Positions 40,190 to 45,493 of a DNA stretch of 64,000 nucleotides are shown here, in pieces; within the stretch, counting starts at the first letter, position 1, and each line of letters begins with the position of its first letter. Both the position numbers and the translations under genes were made by a program. The stretch is from Armatimonadota bacterium. Lineage in GTDB: Bacteria > Armatimonadota > Fimbriimonadia > Fimbriimonadales > Fimbriimonadaceae. Location of the stretch: positions 153,269 through 217,268 of the forward strand of contig JAFDWX010000008.1 in NCBI GenBank assembly GCA_018268255.1, written 5' to 3'. A model generated the notes under the pieces. It was not told the origin of the DNA. It made no database searches and saw only the letters and a list, made by a program, of their open reading frames with translations.

Positions 40190-41866
40190 CTAGAGAGTTA
40201 CGGCGCCGGTGCACGCAGGCCCAACGTTTTTGGCATATCGTCCTAGAACTCCCTTCTCGACCAAAGATTTTGGTCTCCACGCAGTTTTCCGTTCGGCCAA
40301 TTCCTCGTCCGAAAGAGCCACGCTCAGCACAAAGTTGTCTGCATCCACAGTCACCACGTCACCATCTCTCAGCAATGCGATCGGGCCTCCCACGGCGGAT
40401 TCAGGTCCAACATGGCCCACCATCAGCCCGCGAGTAGCTCCGCTGAAGCGCCCATCGGTGATCAGCGCCACGGAATACCCTAGACCTTGGCCAACCAGAG
40501 CCGAGGTTACGCCAAGCATCTCGCGCATTCCTGGACCTCCCTTGGGACCCTCGTTGCGGATCACCACAACGTCTCCGGCGACCACCTTTCGGGCTTGAAC
40601 GGCGGACATCGCATCCTCCTCACACTCGAATATTCTCGCTGGGCCGGTATGCACTAATTTCTGAACTCCCGTGGTCTTTACAACCCCACCTTCCGGTGCG
40701 AGATTGCCACGGACAACCACCAATCCTCCAGTGGGTGCAAATGCGCGATCTGCCGAGTGAACGACATCCTGGTTCTCTGGCACCACTACATCGGCCAGGC
40801 ATTCGGCCATGGTCTTTCCGGACACCGTCAAGCAATCCCCGTTCAAACAGCCTGCATCCAGCAGCGCTTTCATAACGACCGGGACACCTCCGATCTGATG
40901 AAGGTCGAGCATCACATATTTGCCCCCTGGTCGCAAGTTCGCCAAGGTCGGCGTGCGTTGGCTGACCCGGTGAACGTCGTCAAGGGTGATTTCGAGACCG
41001 ATCTCGTGGGCCAGTGCCGGTAAATGGAGTGCCACGTTCGTGCTGCCGCCGGTGGCGGCGGCCACAGCAATGGCGTTTTCAAAAGCCTCTTTGGTCAGGA
41101 TGTCGCGAGGTAAGAGGCCTCCCTGTAGAGCGTCGATGACAGCCGCTCCGATGAGGTCGAGCCAGTCGAGCCGTTCCAAAGCTTCGGCAGGTGGCGATGT
41201 GGAGCCCACCAGCGCCATGCCCAAAGCCTCTGCGACGCAAGCCATCGTATTGGCCGTATATTGTCCGCCGCATGCGCCGGCGCCGGGGCAAACCGCACAC
41301 TCCACCGCATGTAGTTCGGTGGCGTCGATCGACCCATTGGCGTAAGCTCCGGCCGCCTCAAACGCATCTTGGATCGTAACGTCTCGGTTTCCATGCCGAC
41401 CTGGCATGATAGTTCCGCCGTAAACAAATACGCTCGGAACGTTTAGCCTCGCCATGGCCATGAGCATTCCGGGAAGGCTCTTGTCGCAGCCCGCGAGCCC
41501 AACCAACGCGTCGTAGCAATGACCGCGCATCATCAGCTCAACCGAGTCTGCAATGATTTCGCGAGAGACAAGGGAGCATTTCATTCCCTCGTGGCCCATC
41601 GCAATCCCATCGCTTACGGAGATGGTGTTAAATCGGCGGCTCGTTCCGCCATGGCGATTTACCGATTGTGCAATGCGCGCTGCTTGGACGTCCAGGTTCA
41701 CATTGCAGGGCGTCGCTTCACTCCAAACTGAGGCGACTCCAACCCAAGGTTGGGCGATCTCCTTGTCACCCAGCCCCATGGCCCGAAGCATGGCTCGATT
41801 AGCGGTTTTATCCGGACCCTCACTGATCGTCCGGGAACGGTGTTTTACGTCGAAGACTGTGTTCAT
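40190..41866 (-). CDS. ilvD: Dihydroxy-acid dehydratase
   Basis: The protein shows the IlvD/Edd pattern: [65 protein letters not shown] (Fe-S ligands), [19 protein letters not shown] and [20 protein letters not shown]. It makes 2-keto acids in the third step of valine and isoleucine synthesis. I use the ATG at 41866; the frame opens with TTG 12 bases earlier. It is the last gene of the ilvBNCD operon, about 95 bp after ilvC. Confidence 0.96.
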
Positions 41867-41961
41867 AGCAAAATTCAAGCAAGAAATGGCAGTGCCGAGA
41901 CACTTCCGAGAGTTTGCCCGGATCCATTAAATAGGAGCCCAACGTGCGGAAATACAGCACC

Positions 41962-42975
41962 TTAGCTGCCTTCTGGAACTTCCTTTGTCTCCATAAATGG
42001 CATCATCCCTCGAAGTTTCTTACCCACTTCCTCAATCTGATGAGCCCGACCTTTCTTCCGATTGGCAGCCATATTCGGACGCCCATTTTCGTCCTCCGCA
42101 ATCCAGTCTTGGGCAAACTTACCGGACTGGATCTCCTCCAGGATGGCTTTCATGGCAGCACGGCTCTCTGGTCCGATGACCTTTTTGCCAGCGGTGTAAT
42201 CGCCCCACTCCGCGGTGTCGCTAATGCTGTATCGCATGTAGCTCAGACCTCCGACGTACAGCAGGTCCGTGATGAGCTTCACTTCATGGAGGCACTCGAA
42301 GTAGGCAGCTTCGGGCTGATAACCCGCTTCCACAAGCGTTTCAAATCCCGCTGTGATCAGTTCGCTGAGGCCGCCACAGAGCACGGCCTGCTCCCCGAAG
42401 AGGTCGGTTTCAGTTTCCTCCTTGAACGTCGTTTCCAGAACTCCAGCTTTGAGACAGCCGATCCCCCAGGCGTAGCCGAGGGCTCGTTCCAAGGCTGACC
42501 CTGTCGCATTTTGATGGACAGCGACAAGGGCTGGCATCCCGGCTCCGGCAACATATTCCGCCCGAAGTCGATGTCCCGGACCCTTGGGAGCGATCATCGC
42601 GACGTCCACGTTGGCGGGCGGGTCAATCAGGCCGTAGTGAATGTTGAACCCGTGGGCGAACAATATGAGCTGTCCTGCTCGCAAATTTGGAGCGACGTCT
42701 TGGGCGTAGATTTTCCGCATCGGCACGTCAGGCGTACAGAACATCATCACGTCGGCCCATTTGGCGGCTTCCGCTGTCGGCATTACGGTTAGCCCAAATT
42801 CCTCGGCTCGACAAACGCTCTTGCTGCCAGCAGCGAGGCCGACGCAAACGTCTACGCCATTGTCTTTGAGATTGAGCGCATGCGCGTGACCCTGGCTGCC
42901 GAAGCCTATGACCGCCACCTTTTGGGTGCTGAATTCGGATGGATTTACTGAGTCTTGATAGTAGATTTTTGCCAT
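41962..42975 (-). CDS. ilvC: Ketol-acid reductoisomerase, class I
   Basis: The 337-residue protein has the Rossmann motif [27 protein letters not shown], the cofactor-specificity loop [18 protein letters not shown], the metal ligands in [19 protein letters not shown], and [14 protein letters not shown]. The size marks the short class I form. It converts acetolactate and acetohydroxybutyrate to dihydroxy acids. Its ATG follows the ilvN stop directly (TAAATG). Confidence 0.96.
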
Positions 42976-43470
42976 TTATGCGTTTTCCAGTGGGAGGGCG
43001 ATCACGCCGGTGCGGGCAACTCGCCTGATGCCGTAGCCTTCGAGCTTGGAGAGAAGTTCGTCCATGTGATACGGATGGGCGGCAATCTCAAGTGTGATCG
43101 ATTCAGTCGTCTCTTGAGCGACCCGAACGTGGTGAATTTCCGAAATCGGAAAGATTGGAAAGAGATCCGAGGGAGATTGCTTCAGTTCGACTAGTGCCAG
43201 TTCTCGTGCGACGTTCTTTCCTCCGCCCGAGAACGTGCACCAGACCACACACACTAGCTTTTCGATCTGGCGGACGCACCGGGTGATGATGGCTTCGTCG
43301 CCGCGAATCGAAGCTGTCAGCCTTGCGTAACCTGGCTCTTCCGCACTCGCAGCCGAGAAGCTGTCAAGAGTCACGCGATTTCGTCTGAGCACGCTGAGCA
43401 TTCGGTTCAAGGTGCCGTCCTCGTCGTGCACGTAGGCGACAAGCGTGTAGTGGTGGACCTCCGGATTCAT
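42976..43470 (-). CDS. ilvN: Acetolactate synthase small (regulatory) subunit
   Basis: The 164-residue protein has an N-terminal ACT domain (YTLVAYVHDEDGTLNRMLSVLRRNRVTLDSFSAA) and a second alpha-beta domain (ARELALVELK ... SITLEIAAHPYHMDELLSKLEGYGIRRVARTGVIAL). It confers valine feedback on the large subunit. The usual ISVLVENxPGVLxRV opening is diverged (HDEDGTLNRM). Its ATG overlaps the ilvB stop by four bases. Confidence 0.92.
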   Translation of the reverse strand: MNPEVHHYTLVAYVHDEDGTLNRMLSVLRRNRVTLDSFSAASAEEPGYARLTASIRGDEAIITRCVRQIEKLVCVVWCTFSGGGKNVARELALVELKQSPSDLFPIFPISEIHHVRVAQETTESITLEIAAHPYHMDELLSKLEGYGIRRVARTGVIALPLENA

Positions 43471-45167
43471 GCTGGTACCTCGGACTTGCGGTTAAGCGGA
43501 TCAGCAAGGATATGATCGTTGGTCGCGCCAGCAGCCACCATCGGAAAGACATTTTCCTCCATCTCCACGATGAACTCGCATAGCACAGGACCCGGCGCTC
43601 TTCGGGCTGCCTCGATGGTATCGGCCAGAGCGTCGTTGGTGCTGCACTGGATGTAGTGAACGCCGTAGGCTTCGGCCAGCTTGCCGTAATCTGGCGAACC
43701 CATCACAACGTGGCTGTACCGGTTGTCGTAAAACATCTCTTGCCATTGGCGCACCATCCCCAAATACCCATTGTTGACGAGGCAGATCTTGACGTCAAGG
43801 TTGTGTTCGACAGCAGTAATGAGTTCTTGCATGGTCATCTGGAAGCCACCATCACCCACCACCGCCCACACCTCTTTGCCGGGGTTGGCGAAAGCAGCAC
43901 CTATGGCGGCAGGAAATCCGAAACCCATGGTTCCCAACCCCCCGCTCGATAGCCACTGGTACGGTCGCTTGAATTGGTACAGTTGGGCGGTCCACATCTG
44001 GTGCTGGCCCACATCGGTGCTGATAATCGCCTCGCTTTGCGTTGCTCGGTCGAGTTCTGCGATAACGTGGCGTGCCAAAAGCCGATCCTTGGGTGGAACA
44101 ACGATTGGAAATTCGGCCTGCCACTGTCGAATCTGGCTCCACCAGCTACCATGGCTCTTCTGCGGTGCGCGTTTGAGAAATGCTCCGAGACTCTGAGCCA
44201 AATCCCCTCGGACGGGGATGTGGGCAGCGATACATTTGGAAAATTCACTGGCGTCTGTGTCGAAGTGGACCACCGTGGCATTTGGAGCGAAACCGCTCGT
44301 CTTGCCTGTGAGCCTGTCGTCAAATCGAATACCAATTGCCAGGACCAAGTCTGCATTTTGAACAGCGGTTGTTGCAGCCTGTTCGCCGTGCATTCCCATC
44401 ATGCCCAGAGAACGAGGATCATTCCGTGGGAAAACGCCTAAGCCTAGGAGCGAGTTGATAACAGGGAGGTCGCACTTGTCGGCAAGGGCAATGAGCTCCT
44501 GACTTGAATTGCTCCACAAGACGCCTGCTCCGGCTATCACGACCGGACGTTCGGCAGCAGCCAACGCCTGCTCGGCTTCCCCAAGAGCCAACAAGTCAAC
44601 CGGAACCTGCGCAGTATAGCCCCGTCGTTCCACGCGTTCCGGAAACGGGATATCAGAGGTTTTGAGAAAGGCGTCTTTGGTTATATCGACCAGGACAGGG
44701 CCCTTGCGACCGGTGGACGCTAGGAAGAACGCTTCCTCAAGCACCCCGGGCAGGTCATCCGCCTCTGTAACCACATAGTTATGCTTGGTGATGGGAATGG
44801 TGATTCCCTGGACATCGGTCTCTTGGAATGCATCGGTGCCCAAAGCCCATGAATTCACGTTGCCTGTGATCGCGACCATGGGAACGCTGTCGAGCAGTGC
44901 ATTGGCGATTCCCGTGACAAGGTTGGTCGCACCGGGACCGCTCGTCGCCAAACACACTCCGACCTTTCCCGTGGATCTTGCGTACCCGTCCGCGGCGTGA
45001 GCCGCGCATTGTTCGTGGCGCACCAGCACGTGTTTCACCTGGGGCCAGTTCAGCATTTCGTCGTACAGTGGCAGCACCACTCCGCCGGGGTACCCAAAGA
45101 TGGTGTTTACTCCTTGGCGTACCAGGGCCTCCATGACTATTTTTGCTCCGGTTCGTTTCGTCGTCAT
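43467..45167 (-). CDS. ilvB: Acetolactate synthase large (catalytic) subunit
   Basis: The 566-residue protein has the ThDP-enzyme layout. The catalytic Glu is in VLVRHEQCAAHAADGYARSTG, with TSGPGATNLVTGIANA beside it. A central FAD-type domain follows. The ThDP-binding motif is GDGGFQMTMQELITAVEHNLDVKICLVNN. It catalyses the first common step of branched-chain amino acid synthesis. GAGGTGA ends six bases before the ATG, a good ribosome binding site. The gene follows a leader peptide and hairpin. Confidence 0.96.
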   Translation of the reverse strand: MTTKRTGAKIVMEALVRQGVNTIFGYPGGVVLPLYDEMLNWPQVKHVLVRHEQCAAHAADGYARSTGKVGVCLATSGPGATNLVTGIANALLDSVPMVAITGNVNSWALGTDAFQETDVQGITIPITKHNYVVTEADDLPGVLEEAFFLASTGRKGPVLVDITKDAFLKTSDIPFPERVERRGYTAQVPVDLLALGEAEQALAAAERPVVIAGAGVLWSNSSQELIALADKCDLPVINSLLGLGVFPRNDPRSLGMMGMHGEQAATTAVQNADLVLAIGIRFDDRLTGKTSGFAPNATVVHFDTDASEFSKCIAAHIPVRGDLAQSLGAFLKRAPQKSHGSWWSQIRQWQAEFPIVVPPKDRLLARHVIAELDRATQSEAIISTDVGQHQMWTAQLYQFKRPYQWLSSGGLGTMGFGFPAAIGAAFANPGKEVWAVVGDGGFQMTMQELITAVEHNLDVKICLVNNGYLGMVRQWQEMFYDNRYSHVVMGSPDYGKLAEAYGVHYIQCSTNDALADTIEAARRAPGPVLCEFIVEMEENVFPMVAAGATNDHILADPLNRKSEVPA

Positions 45168-45261
45168 ATTCGTTCACCTCGACTCCGGACACGGAGCCAT
45201 GCTTTCCGAACCGACGACCTTGTCGGCATCGCAAGAGGGATCATCCCGCTCTTCTTAAGTA

Positions 45262-45295
45262 GAGAAGCCCTCCCGGTTGACCGGGAGGGCTTCTC
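45262..45295 (-). terminator. Strong hairpin in the ilv leader, candidate attenuator
   Basis: GAGAAGCCCTCCCGGT and its exact complement form a 16-bp stem with a 2-nt loop. It lies 29 nt after the leader peptide stop and about 95 nt before ilvB. No T run follows on the minus strand (TACTTAAG). A CCGGG just after the leader stop could pair with the CCCGG of the first arm, offering an alternative fold. Confidence 0.65.
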
Positions 45296-45324
45296 AAATT
45301 TCATTCTGGAGGCTCACCCGGCGC

Positions 45325-45456
45325 TTACTGATGCCCAGTAATAATTAGGCTAATTAGGACGCTAAGGAGCCCGACGAGGACGCACTCAGAGACGACAACC
45401 GAGGTGTTCACTTCAATCACCTTGGCTTTCACACTCGCTCCTACTCGACCTGTCAT
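45325..45456 (-). CDS. ilv leader peptide, 43 aa, rich in Val/Leu/Ile
   Basis: An ATG at 45456 opens a 43-codon frame ending at a TAA at 45325. 19 of 43 residues are branched-chain: 10 Val, 5 Leu and 4 Ile. They include a VVV run at 20-22 and a dense block, VLVGLLSVLISLII, at residues 26-39. Placed upstream of the strong hairpin and ilvB, it matches the design of ribosome-mediated attenuation leaders such as ilvL and ivbL of enterics, whose sequences differ. An alternative reading is a tiny membrane protein, since the block could span a membrane. A promoter lies just upstream. Confidence 0.7.
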   Translation of the reverse strand: MTGRVGASVKAKVIEVNTSVVVSECVLVGLLSVLISLIITGHQ

Positions 45457-45464
45457 TGGGTACT

Positions 45465-45493
45465 AGCATACACACAAAAGCCCAGATATCCAA
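45465..45493 (-). promoter_or_regulatory. Promoter of the ilv operon (TTGGAT-17-TATGCT)
   Basis: On the minus strand, TTGGAT (45488-45493) and TATGCT (45465-45470) are separated by 17 bp. The leader peptide ATG begins 8 nt after the -10 box, so the leader mRNA would have almost no 5' untranslated region. Confidence 0.5.

Follow-up and report, generated by a model that had tools for sequence, protein, structure and literature searches.

Layout of the ilvBNCD locus

The ilvBNCD genes lie on the minus strand of the window, the 64-kb stretch of Armatimonadota DNA analysed here. The gene ilvB (43467–45167) encodes the acetolactate synthase large subunit, with TPP_enzyme_N, TPP_enzyme_M and TPP_enzyme_C domains, ilvN (42976–43470) the small subunit (ALS_ss_C, ACT_5), ilvC (41962–42975) ketol-acid reductoisomerase (KARI_N, KARI_C) and ilvD (40190–41878) dihydroxy-acid dehydratase (ILVD_EDD_N, ILV_EDD_C). 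Upstream of ilvB, which would be the first gene controlled, there follow on the same strand a promoter-like element, a short open reading frame rich in Val, Leu and Ile codons, a segment able to act as half of an antiterminator, a terminator hairpin with a split U-rich tail, and two small tandem hairpins; all coordinates below are for features on the minus strand. The leader RNA (45258–45465) folds far better than its dinucleotide shuffles (z = −4.65; 0 of 200 shuffles as good).

The region was compared across 29 ilvB loci of the same family with readable upstream DNA, a further locus, L004, being left out because it lies at a contig end. The same layout is found upstream of ilvB in every one of the 29: in 5′ to 3′ order, an apparently leaderless frame of 31–47 codons rich in Val, Leu and Ile; next to its stop codon, a segment complementary to the 5′ arm of the terminator; a strong hairpin with a U-rich tail; and ilvB. 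When the layout was defined strictly, as a Val/Leu/Ile-rich frame with a stem of 9 bp or more beginning 5–45 nt after its end, an automatic test was positive for 26 of the 29 ilvB loci of the family, compared with 3 of 65 in other lineages. The same test, applied to 772 overlapping pieces of the window, was positive for a single piece, namely the ilvB leader site. L011 is the only close ilvB that turned up elsewhere in the order, in a different family, and no such leader is seen there within the 420 nt examined; model R1 gave matches at chance level only among ilvB loci outside the family.

Three loci, L105, L109 and L152, from Thermomicrobium and Litorilinea (both Chloroflexota) and one uncultured bacterium, have a branched-chain-rich frame upstream of ilvB followed by a terminator-like hairpin, and are possible further attenuators. 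Within the family itself a close ilvB occurs in just 30 of 85 genomes, with a distribution that is patchy both between and within genera, and many members are therefore probably branched-chain auxotrophs.

The leader frame and its start

A preliminary description of this DNA had reported a 43-codon frame with 19 Val, Leu or Ile residues, including a VVV run and the block VLVGLLSVLISLII. This frame is confirmed at 45325–45456; it begins with ATG and has the sequence MTGRVGASVKAKVIEVNTSVVVSECVLVGLLSVLISLIITGHQ, in which the putative control codons for Val, Leu and Ile (10, 5 and 4, respectively) account for 44% of the residues. Across the 29 family leaders the share of these residues is 32–55%, and the leaders differ from IlvB in their content of Leu (22.5 vs 8.3%), Val (12.1 vs 9.1%) and Ile (8.9 vs 5.2%). 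Codon choice is also distinctive, with U-ending Leu and Ile codons (CTT and ATT) in the leaders where ilvB has CTC or CTG and ATC; CTT makes up 0.49 of Leu codons in the leaders and 0.16 in ilvB, and ATT 0.76 and 0.27 of Ile codons, respectively.

The frame could in principle encode a real small membrane protein that lies upstream of ilvB by chance. Its hydrophobic block does resemble a transmembrane helix, and dN/dS between close pairs of leaders, at 0.19–0.64, is below 1 in all pairs, although the values for ilvB in the same pairs are 0.02–0.14. Set against this reading are the wide variation of leader sequences and N-termini among genera, the free exchange of Val, Leu and Ile for one another, and the lack of any match of the leader peptide to a Pfam family. 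Moreover, protein function does not explain the unusual choice of Leu and Ile codons, and the frame is in every case closely followed by an antiterminator/terminator pair and then by ilvB. A membrane protein is thus very improbable. In close pairs of leaders, 67–86% of the Val/Leu/Ile columns remain Val, Leu or Ile, and this retention, together with the dN/dS values and the special codon use, fits a leader selected for its codons and composition rather than for its protein sequence. A comparison of the region upstream of ilvB among relatives, which had been put forward as a check on attenuation, agrees with that proposal in that the Val/Leu/Ile composition is kept, the peptide sequence is poorly conserved and the hairpin is retained in all 29 loci.

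The promoter-like element described 8 nt upstream of the frame, TTGGAT-17 nt-TATGCT, is present at 45465–45493, and transcription is predicted to start approximately 0–2 nt before the leader ATG. A TANNNT hexamer is located 5–13 nt upstream of the leader start in 28 of the 29 loci (shuffles: mean 5.6, maximum 15), and a Shine-Dalgarno-like motif is found at 3 of 29 leader starts compared with 26 of 29 ilvB starts. By these sequence criteria the leader start appears to be leaderless, and the nearly leaderless start proposed earlier is not only borne out in the window but conserved, in 28 of 29 relatives. An in-frame GTG at 45432, preceded by TAGGAG, may serve as a second start. As the main start, which would leave a frame of 35 codons, it was rejected in favour of the ATG at 45456, because the starts in the relatives fall 5–13 nt after the −10 element and mostly lack a Shine-Dalgarno sequence.

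Alternative pairings of the leader RNA and termination

The segment that adjoins the stop codon, segment 2 (GCGCCGGGTGAGCCTCC, 45308–45324), is the antiterminator half, with the 5′ arm of the terminator as its predicted partner. An equivalent segment follows the stop codon in 29 of 29 family loci, and had been overlooked in the preliminary description. Its consensus, approximately CCGGGAAG, recurs in the 3′ arm of the terminator, which makes pairing with the 5′ arm, segment 3, possible. In 25 of the 29 loci the segment 2:3 duplex has a better energy than shuffles (p<0.05), and the partner sequences drift together, as in L002 (GGGAAGACC/GGTCTTCCC/GGGAAGACC) and L038 (CCCCAGGAAG/CTTCCTGGGG). True partners have a mean energy of −18.9 kcal/mol compared with −15.2 kcal/mol for permuted partners, and 0 of 20,000 permutations were as good, a count that, like the one given below for segments 1 and 2, overstates the significance because the 29 loci are related by descent and not independent. 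Control pairings had no such advantage over permuted partners. Pairing between segments 1 and 2, the anti-antiterminator or protector, is weak and beats shuffles at p<0.05 in 5 of 29 loci, with 44 of 20,000 in the partner permutation.

The outcome of folding depends on where the ribosome is placed. Nascent RNA was folded with the ribosome footprint masked, and the antiterminator was scored at 6 bp or more. With the ribosome placed late in the frame, on branched-chain codons, the antiterminator forms in silico in all 29 loci; with the ribosome on the stop codon, it does so in one. In the folded window RNA, a ribosome stalled on Leu30, Leu34 or Leu37 leaves an antiterminator of 12 bp (−17.7 to −24.0 kcal/mol), and a ribosome at the stop codon one of 3 bp (−2.7 kcal/mol). 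It is the energy of the stalled state that distinguishes these loci, with a mean of −18.7 kcal/mol compared with −12.4 kcal/mol for segment shuffles and −13.8 kcal/mol for the best shuffled set; the number of pairs alone barely beats shuffles, since shuffled sequences reach 9 bp too, in an average of 15 of the 29 loci. In L010 the stalled-state energy is not better than that of shuffles.

The terminator itself is formed by segment 3 (45281–45295), which doubles as an antiterminator arm, and segment 4 (45262–45276), its 3′ arm. The perfect 16-bp hairpin of the preliminary description proves to be a perfect stem (45262–45295) of 15 bp, closed by a TCAA loop (45277–45280); the gap of 29 nt reported between frame and hairpin is present. 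A terminator stem is found in all 29 family loci. In the window its GC-rich core CCGGGAGGGC is followed by the tail TTCTCTACTTAA (45255–45266), which is split (TTCTCTACTT), has a first part that also closes the stem, and is among the weaker tails in the family. The lack of a T tract noted earlier holds in that the longest T run in this tail is 2, but the tail is still U-rich, with 6 T in 12 positions. Across the family the post-core tail has a mean of 7.2 T in 12, nearly all tails are U-rich, and a run of at least five T (5–8) is present in 15 of the 29. The presence or absence of a T tract is a point on which members of the family differ.

On these grounds, a clear T run in 15 of 29 relatives and a U-rich tail in nearly all, intrinsic termination is the best reading and the likely mode of the family. 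The strength of termination in the window is uncertain, because no T run in its tail exceeds 2, and the terminator here may be weaker, or dependent on a factor such as NusA or NusG. The preliminary description had instead suggested Rho, or the hiding of a start region, which would make frame and hairpin regulatory through Rho termination or through translational control of ilvB. The poor tail of the window (TTCTCTACTTAA) would suit such a mechanism, as would the 14 of 29 loci without a T run of five or more, but the runs of 5–8 T stand directly after the stem in the other 15 loci, the remaining tails are mostly U-rich, and the ilvB start, 94 nt downstream of the hairpin, is outside the terminator; we consider this explanation unlikely. 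Least credible of all is a simple terminator hairpin, which might serve antisense transcripts, next to a peptide that is there by chance. On the plus strand the stem is followed by AAATTTCATT and does score as a terminator, but it is the sense direction that is conserved in 29 of 29 loci, where the U-rich tail comes after the stem, and such a reading accounts neither for the covariation of the antiterminator nor for the occurrence of the layout in one of 772 window pieces.

We conclude that ilvBNCD is very probably controlled by ribosome-mediated transcription attenuation through a leaderless, multivalent leader, a reading that rests on sequence comparison and folding models and that had been proposed from the layout at the outset; frame, hairpin and antiterminator, kept in 29 of 29 loci, support it. 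Transcription would begin at the leader ATG or 1–2 nt upstream of it. A ribosome would load on to the leaderless 5′ end and follow RNA polymerase, translating the peptide as it goes. Under a shortage of charged tRNA for Val, Leu or Ile, it would stall in the VLVGLLSVLISLII block, leaving segment 2 free to pair with segment 3 as the antiterminator; the terminator would then not form and ilvBNCD would be transcribed. When the amino acids are plentiful, the ribosome would reach the stop codon and cover segment 2, segments 3 and 4 would form the terminator, and the transcript would end at approximately 45255–45262.

The E. coli ilvGMEDA and ilvBN operons have multivalent Val/Leu/Ile leaders with alternative hairpins and a ribosome-binding site. 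The switch logic is the same in the present family, where, in contrast, the leader appears to be leaderless. The Corynebacterium ilvBNC attenuator, or ilvB-II motif, likewise has a branched-chain-rich leader and an antiterminator/terminator pair before ilvB (PMC11857589, PMC10272879), and the C. glutamicum ilvBNC leader has been discussed as a leaderless mRNA (PMC11857589). It belongs to a different phylum, however, and has a leader of 15 codons, compared with 31–47 here, with no evident similarity in peptide or RNA; the Armatimonadota loci also have segment 2 after the stop codon and extra tandem hairpins before ilvB. In M. tuberculosis ilvB1NC, as described in the accessible part of the report (PMC13236596), a short frame with the branched-chain block LVVI is likewise followed by a Rho-independent terminator, and a ribosome at the stop codon masks the antiterminator. 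That system too is from a different phylum; the control block is much longer here, and tandem hairpins do not appear in the same part of that report. Branched-chain-codon-rich frames before ilvB are also a feature of the ilvB-OMG and Leptospira ilvB motifs, which the available text of their description presents as proposed attenuators; an Armatimonadota member is possible among the 41 members given there for ilvB-OMG (PMC10272879).

A survey from 2010 placed leader peptides in Proteobacteria, Actinobacteria and, newly, Firmicutes only (PMC2965389). As the preliminary description had surmised for an ilv attenuator, no published case of a leader-peptide attenuator in Armatimonadota was found, in a literature search of incomplete coverage. 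A scan of ten family loci against Rfam 15 gave no family at the gathering threshold, ilv-related leaders, T-box and the ykkC/ppGpp riboswitch included. The present locus would thus place leader-peptide attenuation of branched-chain synthesis in Armatimonadota and, with the cases in Actinobacteria, fits a repeated origin of such attenuators. Having diverged in nature across 29 loci, the switch lends itself to comparing what leaderless starts, codon choice and terminator strength contribute.

Tandem hairpins before ilvB, and leuA

Between the terminator and ilvB (45172–45226) lie two hairpins in tandem, each with a loop of six bases (CCGAC-AAGGTC-GTCGG and GCTCC-GTGTCC-GGAGT), which are supported by covariation. 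One or two such hairpins are present in nearly all family ilvB loci (most of L002–L049), with the consensus CCGAC-ANNGYC-GTCGG and AGYCC-RNNGNN-GGRCT; their closing pairs are invariant, and position 4 of the loop is usually G. Of the cells in 21 loci, 94.8% are paired, and covariation scores higher than in any shuffle or slid control; these loci were picked for having the hairpins, so that the pairing percentage is biased upward, the two-sided changes less so. Searched with a covariance model, the window genome has its best match at ilvB, as do most genomes of a sister genus, and the element is known from this position only.

Several identities were considered for this element. A known riboswitch was rejected, since the tandem hairpins match no Rfam family. 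A general 5′ UTR element was also rejected, as the covariance model matches other sites in the genomes weakly, and most of those checked fall within frames. A DNA palindrome or operator is less likely than an RNA, because G-U pairs are frequent. We suggest, tentatively and as something short of the probable, that the tandem hairpins are a second, independent regulatory RNA unique to the ilvB mRNA of this family, whether a site for a protein or ligand or an element of translation or stability. If so, ilvBNCD would be under two stacked RNA controls; this element is the more novel part of the finding, and a concrete new RNA candidate.

The leuA loci of the family showed no attenuators, their 5′ UTR being very short or absent. 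The product, 2-isopropylmalate synthase, is short in most of the family (L167–L184), with open frames of ∼380–460 residues in which the C-terminal regulatory domain is missing. That of the window genome (L176; G000:C4:50942-52081) has no LeuA_dimer match, and among the family genomes searched a full-length LeuA is found in G010 only. The missing regulatory domain suggests that leucine feedback on LeuA has been lost. In the leuA upstream regions (L168–L184) a TATAAT-like element is often very near the start codon; the leuA mRNA is probably leaderless or nearly so, and leaderless starts may be common in the family.
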